Assembly: GCF_000004075.3 (NCBI RefSeq)
Contig: NC_026660.2
Location: 11,966,001 to 12,030,000, forward strand
Direction: 5' to 3'
Length of the DNA stretch: 64,000 bases
From: Cucumis sativus
Taxonomy: Eukaryota > Streptophyta > Magnoliopsida > Cucurbitales > Cucurbitaceae
The number at the start of each line of letters is the position of its first letter. The first letter of the stretch is position 1. Made by a program: the position numbers and the translations under genes. The notes under the pieces were generated by a model. It was not told the origin of the DNA, made no database searches, and saw only the letters and a list, made by a program, of their open reading frames with translations. Positions 31,581 through 59,939 of the stretch are shown one piece after another.

Positions 31581-32015
31581 ATGATGGACAAGAGTTGAAT
31601 GAAAGTTAAGAATAAGTTATCGGTTGAGTATAGAGAGGGTGTGTCCCAATTTTTAGTGATTGTCAAGTTCCATGTTGATGCTTACAGACGAATAAGGTGT
31701 CCATGTAAGAGATGTATGAACTCAAATTGGTACTCATTAGAAGGTGTGGGGCAACATCTATTAACCATCGAAATATACCCCTCCTATACAGAATGGTTGT
31801 ATCATGGAGATCCAGTGAACTTCCATAGAGGTATTGAAGGTTTGATGAAGGAACCAGTAGTAACCCTTTTAATGAATGAACTAGGTAATAACCCTTTTGA
31901 TGAAGAAGATGAAATGTTTGATATGCTTAGCAATTTACAAGCTTCGATTGAACACGAACGAAAAATAGAAGCTTCCATTGGGATAGATATAGAAGAAGAA
32001 ACATCAAACATGTAA
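31581..32015 (+). pseudogene. CACTA transposase-associated N-terminal domain, disrupted
   Basis: The conserved start MMDKS at 31581 is followed by TGA where the family has Trp (MDKSW), then MKVKNKLSVEYREGVSQFL continues in the same frame to 32015. The sequence has the zinc-ribbon-like pattern IRCPCKRCMN, then GQHLL and YTEWLYHGD, diagnostic of the transposase-associated domain of En/Spm (CACTA) elements, followed by an acidic FDEEDEMFDML region. The catalytic transposase core is absent, so this is a non-autonomous, pseudogenised remnant. A related, differently broken copy lies at 61671-62042 on the minus strand. Confidence 0.8.
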
Positions 32016-32352
32016 TATTATTCAAACCTTTGCCAACGTGAATGGTAAGGACGTCGGCAAAAGTTTAAACATTAATTTTTATTCAAAACTTTGTCGACGT
32101 CCTTACACGTGACGTCAGCGAAAGTTGTATTTTAATAATATTATTTAAACCTTTGCCGACGTCGTGTGTAAGTACGTTGGAATTTTTTTTAAACAAAAGT
32201 TAATGTTTAAACTTTTGTCGACGTCATAGTCAATCGCGTTGACATTACCCCTTATCCAGATGTGTATTCCACCACGTCGGCGTTGTCGCTCTTCGCTGAC
32301 GTCGTTTTTCTTGACGTCTATGGCATCGGTAAAAGTCTCATTTCTTGTAGTG
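32016..32352 (+). mobile_element. Subterminal repeats and 3' terminus of a CACTA element
   Basis: Repeated and inverted motifs containing CGACGTC occur between 32030 and 32330 (TTTGCCGACGTC, TTTGTCGACGTC, GACGTCGGCAAAAG). The stretch ends in TTTCTTGTAGTG at 32352, the TAGTG end complementary to CACTA. The 3 bp beyond the end are GAA; no CACTA end preceded by GAA was found upstream. The left end is therefore lost or unrecognised. Confidence 0.7.
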
Positions 32353-52214: not shown

Positions 52215-52393
52215 AACCACTAGAAGAAAAACCCTCTACTATGACATTTATTTATATCACAAAATAGAGGGAGGAAAAAAAATGTCACGAAAGGGAAAAA
52301 AACGCGTTTTTGGCAGGAAAAGACGGAAATTTTCGGAAAATATTTTTCGCGACAGTTATTTGATGTCATAAAATAGAATTAAAATAATAATAA

Positions 52394-54326
52394 TGATAGA
52401 ACTAAGTCATGCACAGCGGAAAAAGAATCGAATTTCTACCCTAATTGCCACAATTAACATGTAACCATAAACTAATCAAATTAGGGTTTTAAGAAGTATT
52501 ACCTTTGAAGCTTTCAAAAGGTTTGATGTCTTCTTACCAATTCTATCCAAGACCACCACTAGTACTCAACTGCTATCCTCTAGACAAAGAACCAGAGGGT
52601 TTTGCGATGGACCCAATTTTGGTGTAGAAAATAATGGAGATAAAAATGAGATTGGAAAGGTTTTTTTCTTCTTTTGTTGAGATGATGAAAATGATAAAAG
52701 AGGCAAAAGTCCTTCAACATTTGAAAACACCTCTATTTATAGCCTAATTACATGCAAAAATGCATGCAATTCATTTGCCAAATCTCAACACCTAATATTC
52801 CACTAACAATTAGTGGAACTTAGTGGGCTAGGTGTCTATATCTCATATAGCCACATATCCCACTAAGAGTTAGTGGGATTATCCAACAAAATGTTGGATT
52901 TTCCCACTAACTTAGTTCAAGGGTAAAATGGTCATTAGATATTTCTAGTCAAAAGTCAAACTTTGACTTTTCTAAGTCAAAAGTCAATATTTTGACTTTT
53001 TACCATTTTGTCCGTCTTGACTAATTCCAACCTCCCGAGCATGAATCCGCATTCGTTTTTCCAAAATTCAAATCACATTTGAATATAAGGCCGGTCAAAG
53101 TTTGACTTTTCAAAGTCAAAAGTCAACATTTTGACTTTTTACTAATTTTGACCAATTCTGAGCTTCTTAGTATGAATCCGCATTCATACTTATAGTATGT
53201 AAAACATAAAGCTCTATTTCTAATTAGAAGACCGACGACTATATCACTATATTTGTCGGTTTCCCTTTCTTCTCCCAATTCGAACAATTCGACTTATTTC
53301 ATCACACTGTTCTAAGTTTAATCCATATGAGCTAGTAGAGGAACCTAATGGACCTATAGATCATGGGCTCCAACGATTCAAGATTAACTAGCTAAACTCT
53401 TTTAAACCGAGTTAATCAACATTCGTTAACTAACGGGTCATTCCACTAAAGTCCCGTAGTTGCACTCCCCTCACTATAGATATATTTGTGTCCATTTGAT
53501 AAAACCATAATCAGTAAGTTAATCCTTCACAGGTTGCTCGTAACCTTGGTTGGGTCAAAATACCGTTTTACCCCCAAGATTACATCTTGCTCCTTAAGTC
53601 CCACTAATCCACTATTGAACAATTGGTTTAAGGTTCAACCTATAAACTTAATCCCTCTCGGGCCAATGAGAGGGTGGGGCCCCTTGTTCAAGACTTGGAT
53701 TCAGTGCTTAAGAGAGCAACCTATCTACTAACCCTAAAGCGAGTAGGAGTGAATTCCATCTTGTACCCTATGTTCCCAGCTATCCACCCGATCTTACCCC
53801 TGAAATGGGAGGCTTATTGGGCCAACGCTGATGAGCTGCCCTCACCTATGCAGATCTAAGGATAATCTCGTATGAACAGGAGTTCATAGTTAACTCAGGA
53901 TTAAGATTAAGTTACCTAGGTCATCAATAATTGAGATAGTCAGTTTTAAACAGTAAACGGTGTTATAACGTAAAAATGACTAATTCATGGTTCAGTCTTA
54001 TGTAAACATTTTACATAGGATGCCCCCACTTTCATGTCTCTACATGAACGATTAGGATCACCTCGTTTGTACTACAAAGTGGGCCGCATCCATAGTTTCT
54101 CAAAATAAGGCGCCCAACCTTTATTTCATATACTATAGACTATTTAGGCTATATACTCGAACTTGATCCACGTTTATGTTTACACATAAAGTTCAAGTTT
54201 ATTCAAAAAATAGCCTTGGAACTTGATTTATTGGATTTAGATTATAATATTTAATTTCTCAATAACAACTTTATTGAACAGAATATGATTTACAAACTAC
54301 GAGTTTTAGGACAAAAAATTCCAACA
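52394..54326 (-). mobile_element. Solo LTR (about 1.93 kb) nested in the CACTA element
   Basis: Ends TGATAGAACTAAG and AATTCCAACA (on its own strand it begins TGTTGGAATTTTTTGTCC). It is flanked by the perfect 5-bp duplication AATAA at 52389-52393 and 54327-54331. A TATAAATAGAGG promoter motif on the minus strand near 52730-52742 sits about 340 bp from the 3' end, as in an LTR. The segment is less AT-rich than its surroundings (53400-54150) and non-coding. No internal retrotransposon region is present. It inserted after the CACTA element. Confidence 0.82.
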
Positions 54327-54377
54327 AATAAAATAATATATTTAATATAAAAAAATAATAACTTTTTTAGGGATTTT

Positions 54378-54720
54378 TAACTTATTCCCTTCTCCCCTTT
54401 CCCCTTTCTCCCCTTTTGCCTCCCCTTTCTGCTTTCTCCCCTTTCTCCCCTTTCGCCTCCCCTTTCAGATTTCTTTCCTTTCGCCTCCCAATCTCCGAAC
54501 TCCTTGAACTCCCTTCTCCAGACGACGACGAGGTCCATCATCGGCACTGCCCCCTCGTCGCCATCTCCCCACTCCAACGTCGCCTGTACCTCTTCTACTA
54601 CACGACGAACGGGCTACGACCACTCTTTGGAGTCTACCATTAAAGCCTCCAAATCTCGCCTTTCTCAGATTCGTTCCACCTCTTATCCTCATTTCCAAAA
54701 GGCAATTGTAATTTCTTCAT
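54378..54720 (+). pseudogene. Pyrimidine-rich start of a captured, unidentified gene
   Basis: A C/T-rich leader-like stretch (54386-54490) is followed by an open frame reading TTTRSIIGTAPSSPSPHSNV, then SLESTIKASKSRLSQIRSTS and YPHFQKA, ending at about 54705. The layout (CT-rich leader, Ser/Pro-rich start, helical segment) suggests a captured first exon. I do not recognise the gene. ORFs on the other strand here are by-products of the base composition. Confidence 0.35.
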
Positions 54721-54734
54721 CCTTTATTATTACT

Positions 54735-54801
54735 TGAATAAAGCTTTAGGCTATTTGCTAGATTGCATTTGAATAAAGTTTTAGGCTATTTGCTAGATTG
54801 C
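54735..54801. repeat. Tandem duplication of about 33 bp
   Basis: TTGAATAAAGCTTTAGGCTA and TTGAATAAAGTTTTAGGCTA both continue with TTTGCTAGATTGCA, giving two adjacent copies inside the CACTA element. Confidence 0.8.
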
Positions 54802-55389
54802 AAAGTGGTTTCTGGATACAAAATCCCATGGTCGAAATTTAAGAAGAATTGAGTTCTTGCTCCTGCCGATTTTTTCAATTAAACTTGAAACTCAATTCTC
54901 AACATTGCATCTAAGATATGTTCTTCACAAATTTTTGTATTTATTCCTTAATTTTTCTAGATTTCTGGCTGCCACTAAGTAAATGAATATTCTTTCTTTT
55001 GTGTTCCCCACCAATTGTTTGATGAAATGCCCATGGGAGGAAATCTTGATTATTGAATGTACATAGGAGGAAATCATTTTAGAATGTTATTATAGTGGAA
55101 TCCTGGTGAACTAGATTTTATTTTAATGGTTCTAATTTTATTAGTTAAATTTCTTTTGAGGTAGGGGATAAGACCCTTTGAATAAAATTTTGATTAGTTA
55201 AAACATAATCATAATTCTTTATGATTAGTTATCATGTTTTTGCTTGGAGAATATTGACTTTTTGTTGATACTTAAATCATGTTCTTAGTGATTGTGCTAG
55301 TTCCTTCCCATTTACCTACTCCCTCTCTCTAGTGTGTGTGTTTGCTTTGATCAATTAATGTGGTACATATCTGGTGGTATTTTATTTAG

Positions 55390-55440
55390 GTTTGTGATTT
55401 TGGACTTTCACGCTTGAAGTCCTTTATCAAACTTCTTTTA
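55390..55440 (+). pseudogene. Captured protein-kinase activation-segment exon
   Basis: After a good acceptor (TTTATTTAG at 55389) the frame reads VCDFGLSRLKSF. This is the DFG segment as found in Raf-like MAPKKKs of the CTR1/EDR1 group, where VCDFGLSRLK is typical. The frame runs on only briefly and no other kinase motif follows, so it is a fragment. Confidence 0.6.
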
Positions 55441-56109
55441 AAGGTAAAGTTTGTTGTAAACTCTTTTGAAAAGATCCATTTGTAAAAGGTTAGATTCACA
55501 TATTTGACATAATTCTTTTCAATTGAGATCCTTTTTATGGTTCTCCCCCAACATGGATCACTTAGCGGTGTCAAGCATTGTTCCTGGTGGTTCATTGCCT
55601 AATATATTTTTCCCAAAGATGCATGCCAAGTGTCATATTTTCTGTTAGTATTATTTTATGATCCCAATAGTCTCTCTCTTGAGAAATGAGAATATTGATC
55701 TAGAACTATAAATTCTAGTTGCCCATAGTATAGATCCCAATGTATATCACTTTTATCGAGACTAGATGTTGTCTTCCTATTACCACTATTTATGAAACTG
55801 ATATGACAATGAAAGTTCTAATGGACCAGTTGAGACATAGGATATAAATAATGCAACTTTATAGATCACAAAGAAAAATTATTTCATCTTATAAGTTATA
55901 TTAAGTTGAAGGTAGTGGTTCTCTTATCTTAACCTTTTTTAGCAAAGGAAAAAAAGGAAAGAAAAACCCAAATCAATATCATCAACCATGAACCCCATAA
56001 AGTCATTTTACGTACACTGAAAAAGTTGCATTCAAAATGGCTTGGGTCTAAGTTGAAGATATTACAAAGAGCAATTTCTAAATTGGCAATATGGTTGTAA
56101 TGCAGCCAC

Positions 56110-57216
56110 AAGCGAGTTGGAATATGCATTTGTTGAGGTACTTTTTTTATTCTTGTTTTTTTATTCTTTCTAGTACTTCGGCAAAATGCTCTTTATTGTT
56201 TTGCAGTGCAAAAACTTAATTGCTGACGTTGGGGATATGATGAGTGTCGAAGTGATTGTTGAAGGATCAATGAATAGTTCGAACCCATACTTCTCAAGCT
56301 CTTGGCGACGGGACTTCGCTGTAAGTGTTCTTCTAGTAAACAACCACAACACAATTTTTAAATATTATCTATGTTGTTTTCATTTTTCCCATCAAATCAT
56401 GATTCATGATTGCCACTTTTACACTTTTTCATGGAAGAATATGTTGTTCTTATTATAGATGGAACTATTGTATAATGGAATGCCCAATAACAAGACCTCT
56501 ACATTTATATCTATGTTATCTCTCTCTCTCTTTTTGTTCTTTTTATCCCGATGATGTATTCTTAAATTTTATCTTTCATTGACAACATATGTCTTGTGTC
56601 AGAGGGGTTTCATTTTGGATATGGGCGTACACTTCATTGCTGGATTACGGATGGTAACTGCCTTTGAAACTTTTTTCCTGTGAGAAAAATATTTGAGTTC
56701 TATCCTAATGGCTATCACTTGCCTACTGATTAACCATTATTGTTTCTGCTCTTCTTTAAGTCCAAAATGTTTATAATCTCAAAATTGACAAAACCTATAA
56801 AACCAGTACAAGTCTCAAGTACATAAGATGAGGTGGTGATGAATTACAAGCGTGACTGTCGCAAAGGCTCTAATTTGTGGAAGAAGAAAAAAAAACCACC
56901 TTTAGTCATGCATGGCATTTATGTTCCCTCCCCGATGGCACCATCCTTGATATGATATTCTTAATTTGGAAATGCTAGTTTCTTGTATTTGTAAACAACT
57001 TGTTGGATGTGAGGTGGTATCAGTTTCAGTGACTACCTCCTATGTGGATAAGTCTTTACCTCCGCCAGATAACATATCCTCGCTCTTGTAAGTTTCAATT
57101 GCTTACTGCTAATTAATGAGTCACCAACAAGTTTGAAAACCTAGAAATTAAGAATGAGACATTTTCCCCTCATTTAGCCAACTGGAGAATGGATGTTCTG
57201 GTGTTTTCGTAATGGT
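56110..57216 (+). pseudogene. Captured Gfo/Idh/MocA-type oxidoreductase gene fragment (At4g17370-like)
   Basis: Five successive exon pieces keep their order and introns: to 56137 (ELEYAFVE then GT), 56207-56320 (CKNLIADVGDMMSVEVIVEG then SMNSSNPYFSSSWRRDFA), 56603-56653 (RGFILDMGVHFIAGLRM), about 57003-57087 (CEVVSVSVTTSYVDKSLPPP then DNISS), and 57178 to about 57216 (QLENGCSGVFVMVF). The family is NAD(P)-dependent oxidoreductases with a Rossmann fold; these exons are from the C-terminal substrate-domain half, and the Rossmann part is missing. The fourth piece lacks an AG acceptor where one is expected, and the fifth runs into non-homologous sequence. It is a transposon-captured pseudogene that retains introns, so it was copied from DNA rather than RNA. 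Confidence 0.78.
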
Positions 57217-57522
57217 GTTTCTACTTGATTTACATCGTAAGCAGTTTTCTTTTTTCCAGGTTAATCTTGTAAGAACTAAAGAAAACTTACCAATATTCTT
57301 TCTGCTTGCAAAGATGAAAATGTGAAGCTATCTCCGCCTCGAATTGTATGTTATTTCTAAATTGAGTTCCAATTGTATATATTTTAGTGCTATTGTGAAT
57401 TCGGTATCCAAGATGTAGAATTCAGCTCTAGAACGTCAGGACACGAGTAGGTTGAAAAACTTTATTAGCTTTTCCTAAGTATGATTACTCACAATAACAT
57501 CTAATTTTAAACTTAAATGCAG

Positions 57523-57575
57523 AGATGAGTCTTGAAGAAGTGATAAGATATGTTGCATCTGATGAACTTATTAAG
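57523..57575 (+). pseudogene. Captured exon resembling a TypA/BipA GTPase C-terminus
   Basis: Between an acceptor (AATGCAG) and a donor (AAG then GTAG) the frame reads MSLEEVIRYVASDELIK. This resembles the LEEAIxYVAxDELIEVTP segment near the C-terminus of TypA/BipA-type translational GTPases. The match is short, so the identity is tentative. It could instead be another exon of the neighbouring captured genes. Confidence 0.35.
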
Positions 57576-57867
57576 GTAGTTTATGCTTTTATTTAATCAA
57601 ATTGTCTTTTCCATCTTCATTTTCTTTGGAAATTCTTGCCAATGTACTCAACTCGTAATATTCTGATGCAAAAACTACACACTTAATTATTGCATTGTGC
57701 CATGACCATATTGAAAAAAAAATGCAGCAAAATAGAAAGGAAAAGAAATTTCAAGAGGTAACTTATGGAAGCTCATTTGGGACTTCCATGTCCATGAAAT
57801 TACAACATTAGGTAGATGTCATTTATCTTGTTTGTTAATTTCCAATTTCTTTTCTTGGGGTTTGTAG

Positions 57868-57938
57868 GCTACTTTGGTTGATTCCTTTCTAGCAGACCTT
57901 GATGAACTCTCTGATGAACTTCTCCATGTAAATGAAGT
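57868..57938 (+). pseudogene. Captured PRP31-like N-terminal exon
   Basis: Following an acceptor-like TTTGTAG the frame reads ATLVDSFLADLDELSDELL. Plant PRP31 splicing factors begin MATLADSFLADLDELSDN. The match starts at the second residue, the initiating Met is replaced, and the acidic continuation is missing. It is a small captured piece of a U4/U6 snRNP protein gene. Confidence 0.6.
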
Positions 57939-59005
57939 AATAATTTTGTTGGTTGTGTGTGAGTGAAGTCTTTAATTTGTTTGATTTAGTTTAGTGGCTT
58001 TAATTTGATGGCTTTAATGGTTGTAATGTTTTGCTTATTTCTTTTAGCCTCTCACTTTTAAAAAATTGTTTGTTTCATTTCCACCACTCAAGTCAGGTAA
58101 ATGGATTGAGTTAAGTTACAAGACTCTGCACGAATTTCTCATAATACTTAGTTATCCATATACAAAATTTAGGATACCTATATTATAGTGTACTTCAGGA
58201 AGCTAATGAAGCATTTAATTATTTATGTCTCTTTAGGAGTCTCACATGTAACTTAAGAATTGAGTAATTAGTCAGTTGACTTCCTTACTTGTTGATGATG
58301 CAAAAACTATACAACTTTTTCTTCTATTCCTTTCAATTTGTATTGAACAAATGGAGAATCTTACAAGGGTATTCTTTGTCACGTGCCACATAGGATAATG
58401 TTGGGCACTTCATTCTAGTAACAAGCTCTAGCCCTAAATTGTTGCAAGCCAGCAATGAATGGTACATTGATATATGTATGTTTTGACACGAACCCCTTCA
58501 GTTGCCCAATCATCTGCATTCCACAAACTGGTATATATTCTTATTCATTGCTTGTTAGGAAAAGCTATTCCTTGATTATCGTAGTTGCGCAAAACTCTGA
58601 TTGAAGTGCAATTTGGCTAACTGCATTTCAGGCCTTTTTTTTGTCATGAACCTGAGTACTTGCTATAATCTTACTCTCTGTTTTAATAATCTGAGAGAAT
58701 TGGTGCATAATTATTCATAGTTCATCTTTATTTGTGATGATTGTCTAATACAAACTCTTGAACTTTAAGGACTAGGAATTGTCTTAGCTTTTTTGTTGTA
58801 AGGACTAGGAATAAGGATATATTTGTGATATTGGCTTTCCATTTTTCACTCTTTGATGATTTGTTATTAATCAATTTTAGTGGTTATATATACTAAAACA
58901 AACTATTGAATTGCAATGATAGGTAATGCTCAATGTTGAAATTTTCTATAAGAGTTGTACTCTCTTGTCCTATCATGGATGCTTATATTCATGTTGTCTT
59001 TGTAG

Positions 59006-59097
59006 GTTCAACTGGAGTCGACAACTTCATGAGTTTTCTTTCAAAGAACATTTCCAGAGACGAACATTCTCGGTTGGTCGTTTATGCTTCTGCATAA
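59006..59097 (+). pseudogene. Captured terminal exon of an unidentified gene
   Basis: After an acceptor (TTTGTAG) the frame reads GSTGVDNFMSFLSKNISRDE, then HSRLVVYASA and a TAA stop at 59095-59097, followed by 3'-UTR-like sequence. It has the composition of a real last exon. I do not recognise the family. Confidence 0.4.
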
Positions 59098-59939
59098 AAT
59101 CTTGTTAGATGTATTCTAATGCTATTTAAAATATTTTTTGATTAAGGGCTAGGATTCCGTACATGTGGATTGTTGAAACTTGTATGGAGATGTACAAATA
59201 TTATAAATTGTATTATAGTGTATATATATTAAAGTGTTGGCTATTTTTTTCTACATGGGTGTCAATATTATAAATTCAAAATTGTCATTCTCAGCTACAT
59301 TATTGTCATTCAAATGGTTCGTGTAATGGTGGAGCGGCAAAGACAACAGGAAAAAACGGTAGTAAATTGAGAAATGTGCAACATGAGATAAATGACGTAA
59401 TAAATGAATTTGTGACAGTTATTACTTGTTGTAAATTGGAGAACGATGATATTTAACAAAATAAATTGTCACGATTGCCCTATATGTGACATGAATAAAA
59501 TGTCGTCAATAGATAAACAATGACAATTTTTTTTAAAAAAAGATCTGTCACGATTGCAATATATTTGACTGCAAAAAAATGTCGTCAATAGCAAAACAAT
59601 GACATTTTTTTAAAAAAAAACTGTTGCGAATAACATATTCATGACAATTAAAAAATGTCACAATAAATGAATTCGTGGCATTTATTTAACCGTCGTTAAT
59701 ACACAAATGATGATAGTTATTTGTTGTCATAAAATAAAATATGACAGTTATTTGAAGTCGTTGAATGTTGATTAACGACATTTATTTCATGTCATAAAAT
59801 AACATATTGCGACAGTTTTTAAAAACTATCGTCGAAGGACTTTCCATGACTCCCGCTTCTATGACTGAAAATAACTGTCGTGAAATTTGTTTACTACAGT
59901 AAATAACTGTCGTCGTAGACCACTTTTCTACTAGTGAAC

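Follow-up and report, generated by a model that had tools for sequence, protein, structure and literature searches.

CACTA transposons that move autonomously are of the En/Spm type. Elements with CACTA terminal inverted repeats (TIRs), no transposase and captured coding DNA are described as Pack-CACTA in Arabidopsis, rice and maize, those of maize often holding DNA from several loci (PMC8903248). In the literature searched, the nearest published precedent for the element treated here is Tgm-Express1 of soybean, a CACTA element in an intron of F3H that contains five host gene fragments (PMC1947982). Our element occupies positions 52218-59936 of the window, the whole 64-kb stretch of the cucumber genome that was analysed (C6:11966001-12030000). 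It resembles Pack-CACTA in its TIRs, its captured coding DNA and its lack of a transposase. The fragments of Tgm-Express1 are reported to be spliced, whereas our element is known from sequence alone; for it, however, we could resolve the donor loci, the sister copies and the sequence of capture events. Very probably, judged from sequence, it belongs to a silenced, trans-mobilised, non-autonomous Pack-CACTA family, a multi-copy clan that captured blocks of host genes stepwise and carries them as passengers. No cucumber Pack-CACTA family was named in the titles and abstract openings of the literature searched, although one may still be in print. The element type is already known; what we describe is one member of it, resolved in good detail, and not a new gene.

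The element starts with CACTAGAAGAAAA and finishes with TTTTCTACTAGTG, with CACTAGAAGAAAA/CACTAGTAGAAAA as TIR pair. In a motif scan of the window, exact CACTAGNAGAAAA occurred only at 52218-52230 (+) and 59924-59936 (-). Allowing up to two mismatches gave 20 matches in the window against 10.9 expected, and the four such matches between the element ends (52664, 55638, 56326 and 58317) were taken for chance. The subterminal motif CGACAGTTATTT, with one mismatch allowed, was found five times against 0.34 expected, all close to the two ends. TIRs starting with CACTA/G, a 3-bp target site duplication and repeated subterminal motifs are thus all present, as in the CACTA superfamily. An earlier, sequence-only reading of this DNA had proposed the CACTA ends, the AAC duplication and the subterminal repeats, and each of these held. 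Relatives elsewhere share the same two ends with matching duplications, so that 52218-59936 is one element and a chance pairing of two unrelated CACTA ends was rejected.

The genome searched for copies and donors comprised 226.6 Mb in 88 contigs; loci fetched from it carry L numbers. The right end (59300-59933) had at least 48 matches (best 40 of 483 candidates scored), the left end at least 40 (best 40 of 344) and the whole cargo, 55468-59290, at least eight places with the window included (best 40 of 487). The full interior, 54330-59290, was present at no fewer than three places including the window (100, 98 and 98% identity), 55468-59290 as a single match at five or more further places (95-97%), and parts of the interior at still others, as in a multi-copy Pack-CACTA family. 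Matching 3-bp flanks were seen in eight of the nine copies compared on both sides, the window included (AAC, CTC, GTA, ACT, TGT, TAA, TAC and AAC); the right end of the ninth (C1:31096370) was not recognisable. In three of the eight, C7:112778, C7:12733340 (right) and C3:22515814 (both ends), the end bases were mutated and the limits were set by alignment.

The copies also date two changes within the element. The 1,933-bp solo-LTR-like insert of the window copy is flanked by the 5-bp sequence AATAA at 52389-52393 and 54327-54331. In all six sister copies fetched at this point (L032, L033, L040, L041, L042 and L046) position 52393 joins 54327 directly; the insertion is therefore private to the window copy and a later event. 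Its minus strand is presumed from resemblance. Second, about 850 bp following 55472 are present in L034-L039, L044 and others and absent from the window, L032, L033 and L040-L042, with GAAAA at both edges of the deletion. Since the last 235 bp of this segment match the oxidoreductase donor described below, the long form is ancestral and the window subgroup bears a deletion.

The interior holds gene pieces whose donors were found at four separate loci, on C4, C5, C6 and C7, with introns kept in the captured blocks (Table 1). The exons of the kinase donor match protein kinase families in Pfam, and the piece is one that we take to be Raf-like; a kinase peptide query of the genome found the C6 exon and the next exon at 92% and 97%. 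Locus L065 is intermediate: its identity to this donor is 89%, across a longer stretch, and to the window 92-96%, so that the kinase block probably came via another element. L065 itself (C4:7331300) was rejected as the kinase gene: its DFG exon is degenerate and it shares the leader with the elements, whereas C6:23390700-23391900 has the next kinase exon. The oxidoreductase block is 93-96% identical to its donor, by piece; missing from it are 84 bp within one donor exon and, upstream, a further 500 bp or so. Past 57216, where the element stops mid-exon, the donor runs on through further exons to a stop codon; its joined exons match the C-terminal families PF22725 (E=8e-15) and PF02894 (E=1e-14). 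The TypA donor exons match BipA_C (PF21018, E=3.7e-41) and solved BipA/TypA chains.

The two remaining names need more comment. Both matches to Prp31_C in the genome sit about 1.4-2.3 kb downstream of the PRP31 donor place on the same strand (C5:25791960-25792904), and the name rests on them because the N-terminal peptide matched neither Pfam nor a solved structure. For the acyl-CoA-dehydrogenase-like scrap, the fuller exon present in L066 and L067 matches Acyl-CoA_dh_N (E=3e-6), with isovaleryl-CoA dehydrogenases among weak solved-structure matches (E about 0.003). A genome search found no native donor gene for it; C4:7380264-7380402 was set aside as a weak match that also has a PRP31 part and was therefore taken for an element. 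The cargo thus comprises pieces of at least four unrelated host genes, with donors located, and likely of a fifth, acyl-CoA-dehydrogenase-like one. The sequence-only reading had named kinase, oxidoreductase, TypA and PRP31 pieces from at least three and possibly five host genes, and had suggested aligning the interior to the host genome in search of the parental loci. Donor loci were found for four, so the four names stood and the count is now four donors with a fifth gene likely; transduplication at the DNA level fits the separate donors, the retained introns and the donor 3' exons beyond the junction. Its fifth piece, an orphan terminal exon from 59006, was not a captured one.

Table 1. Features of the CACTA element in the window, with the evidence for each
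Feature	Position	Strand	Evidence
Target site duplication AAC, left copy	52215..52217		sequence; matching duplications in sister copies
Left CACTA end, TIR CACTAGAAGAAAA and subterminal repeat	52218..52393	+	motif scans; genome search
Solo-LTR-like insert, TG...CA on + strand	52394..54326	-	sequence; absence from sister copies
C-rich leader	54327..54734	+	matched at at least 25 other places; donor search of the genome gave no origin
Kinase piece: intron and DFG exon from 55390, truncated mid-exon at about 55419	55041..55419	+	84% to L068 = C6:23390700-23391900
GFO/IDH/MocA oxidoreductase block, exons and introns, right end mid-exon	55468..57216	+	donor L047/L070 = C4:13829754-13834500 (-)
TypA/BipA piece: two exons, of which the first shares a 2-bp frameshift with other elements	57216..57682	+	87% to L061 = C7:2427500-2430000 (-)
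Acyl-CoA-dehydrogenase-like exon scrap	57759..57821	+	fuller in L066, L067
PRP31 piece: early exon from 57868	57817..57955	+	95% to L063 = C5:25793800-25795000 (-) over 57817-57918
Interior sequence common to other clan elements, no coding match recognised	57956..58974	+	genome searches
CACTA 3' core: own terminal exon (acceptor AG 59004-59005), subterminal repeats, right TIR 59924-59936	58975..59936	+	edge of right-end matches
Target site duplication AAC, right copy	59937..59939		sequence

The terminal exon is part of the transposon's own 3' core. When 58900-59300 was searched in 27 right-end loci, 25 matched (all except L004 and L014), 14 of them with the left edge exactly at 58975; six window-type copies extended beyond this point and five matches began later. 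The stretch 58918-59110 was found at no fewer than 34 places in the genome (best 40 of 289 candidates scored), and at L028 a TNP2 match, the same terminal exon end and the right end occur at one locus. These matches led us to reject a captured origin. The core is shared with relatives in this genome that bear TNP2 (Transposase_21, PF02992), the transposase of autonomous CACTA elements, which have ends of the same type. Unlike these, the window element has no open reading frame (ORF) of 100 aa or more within 52218-59936 in an ORF scan, hence no transposase, and is non-autonomous. TNP2 gave at least 151 genome matches (best 150 of 435 candidates scored). Eleven of these each stand upstream of a right end, on its strand and 0.6-8.3 kb away; this pairing by coordinates, together with locus L028, is the basis for assigning the TNP2-bearing relatives. 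Among the pairs are C6:13821813/13830278, C6:13892316/13884202, C1:15470235/15475197 and C5:12290252/12297922, the last with an 848-aa open frame; in L069, a 1.3-kb stretch of one TNP2 relative, one frame is open throughout. Eight copies of the 3' core stand on one strand within 130 kb at C3:18100236-18229786, in an array-like arrangement.

Older relatives allowed the order of capture to be read. The L048 locus has leader, kinase, TypA and PRP31 parts, as does L051 with an incomplete kinase part, and neither matched the oxidoreductase part. In L048, L051 and L066 the TypA sequence upstream of 57216 continues as in the TypA gene, where the window family has oxidoreductase sequence, and L048 holds about 1.46 kb of other sequence between the points where the oxidoreductase block stands in the window family. 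Comparison by eye of the donor with the pre-capture element showed microhomology at both joints: 3 bp (TCT) on the left, read in L057, and 1 bp (T) on the right, read in L048. The same 84-bp deletion of donor exon is shared by the window and all 13 other copies compared, so that the oxidoreductase block was captured once. This block replaced interior sequence of an older kinase, TypA and PRP31 element of the L048 type. For the mechanism we infer that TNP2-bearing relatives, whose right ends are similar, would provide the transposase in trans and so allow excision of the element; the gap left behind would be repaired with template switching at a few homologous bases, by which a gene block would be acquired; and the copies would have been CG/CHG-methylated and silent, their gene pieces being passengers. 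More tentatively, the clan as a whole may shuffle exons as modules: gene blocks would move from one CACTA element to another, and take each other's place within them, by template switching in gap repair, the terminal exon of the transposon serving as a fixed 3' acceptor.

Such a route would differ from the published model, proposed for Pack-CACTA of Arabidopsis, in which neighbouring tandem CACTA insertions fuse together with the host DNA between them (PMC8903248 and PMC13317346). We consider this origin of the cargo unlikely. No exact or one-mismatch TIR motif was found between the ends and no subterminal repeat between the blocks, and both limits of the oxidoreductase block fall within older cargo, with 3 and 1 bp of homology. 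Unlike in the Pack-CACTA elements of that literature, a block here occupies the place of older cargo, with microhomology at its junctions, and tandem-insertion fusion is not visible.

The captured pieces bear the marks of decay. An identical 2-bp insertion shifts the frame of the TypA exon in the window and in all four other element sequences aligned. The oxidoreductase acceptor at 56997-56998 reads AA in the window and in ten of the 12 other copies covering the site, and AG in L039, L045 and the donor. The PRP31 splice donor has been removed from the window copy by a 30-bp deletion at 57918; it is lost also in L033 and kept in L034. In all 13 copies compared, exon divergence from the window equalled or exceeded that of introns. 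These comparisons share the window as reference, include the twins L040 and L041 and are not independent; only in the twins was the difference significant at p<0.05 (p=0.039). Among the equivalents of 56107-57216 in L032-L045, too, captured exons tended to diverge more than introns, apparently because CG and CHG cytosines are denser in exons. When polymorphism across 14 copies was polarised with the donor as ancestral state, C>T changes affected 16 of 42 CG and 20 of 51 CHG cytosines (together 36/93), against 21 of 347 CHH. Of 18 changes fixed between the donor and all copies, some of which may be donor changes, one was a CG C>T and none a CHG C>T. Such a pattern would be expected if the copies, once amplified, had long been methylated at CG and CHG, and it favours a silenced element.

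Several points weigh against this reading, or parts of it, besides the shared reference of the exon and intron comparisons. Measured against the oxidoreductase donor, exons differed slightly less than introns (7/319 and 28/788 bases, p=0.34). The C4 donor may be incomplete as a gene: a genome search for the N-terminal oxidoreductase domain listed five matches, none of them near it, and we regard it as a donor locus, not a proven gene. At only 87% identity, the TypA donor may stand in for another copy that was the direct source. Right ends of the TNP2-bearing relatives, paired by coordinates, are only 80-89% identical to that of the window, and tandem insertion could still account for the older blocks.

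Another possibility is that the copies give rise to small RNAs which would tune the donor genes in trans. The cargo is 84-96% identical to its donors, and the CG/CHG decay suggests that the copies drew methylation. We nevertheless find this role rather improbable, as the element has no inverted repeat longer than 36 nt among the 25 pairs listed out of 30, the gene pieces all have one orientation, and for matches of 21-24 nt the identity to two of the donors, kinase and TypA, is low. More doubtful still is a new gene in which splicing would join the captured exons into one chimeric mRNA, with the CACTA terminal exon as its last, and the encoded protein would be under selection. The window keeps most canonical oxidoreductase splice sites, with open frames in those exons, as well as the terminal exon acceptor, and the fragments of Tgm-Express1 are spliced (PMC1947982). 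Coding constraint, however, was not seen. The frameshift shared by five of five aligned elements, the acceptor and PRP31 donor missing from the window, exons no better conserved than introns among the copies, the CG/CHG decay and the lack of any ORF of 100 aa all speak against such a gene; the new proteins suggested by the sequence-only reading thus find no support in the sequence. That the interior is one decayed collinear host gene, or a cluster of neighbours flanked by a CACTA element by chance, as the common orientation of the pieces might suggest, can be dismissed, with donors dispersed over C4, C5, C6 and C7 and the cargo recurring between the same kind of ends elsewhere.

Other members of the clan differ in content. 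In L042 (C5:15661473-15666938) the oxidoreductase sequence stops at 56772 and is followed by exons of a BRX1-like gene of ribosome biogenesis. L040 (C3:17557258-17563131) and L041 (C4:11198545-11204405) show 100.0% identity over the parts compared and have their flank and an insertion breakpoint at 57196 in common; the pair may stem from interchromosomal duplication or be produced by the assembly. L066 (C1:14115400-14118200) and its relatives form another type of captured-gene element, with TypA and acyl-CoA-dehydrogenase-like exons. A further stretch of L066 is presumably derived from a callose synthase; its peptide matched neither Pfam nor a solved structure. One element of this type has the same ends by coordinates (left end C6:14098726, TypA C6:14096489, 3' core C6:14093868). 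The same ends also bound L011 (C6:11387702-11391336) and L012 (C3:21457454-21461091), 5.6-5.7 kb by coordinates, with different cargo and open frames of 85 and 98 aa. Within the window, 31599-32352 belongs to a different CACTA remnant: an ORF with a Transpos_assoc domain (PF13963, E=8e-16) is followed by GTCGACGTC-type repeats and then by an end, CACTACAAGAAAT, on the minus strand. Scans of the 64-kb window for tRNAs and against Rfam gave no matches.

In annotation, copies of this family call for caution, since they can be mistaken for kinase, oxidoreductase, TypA or PRP31 genes. Transposons that capture several gene fragments are known, but how and in what order the pieces were taken up is difficult to reconstruct from them. 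In the present genome, relatives from before a capture, copies from after it and the donor itself all survive, which allows three readings of one junction and a comparison of the capture models. If the modular view of the clan is true, block replacement would be a capture route apart from the published tandem-insertion model.

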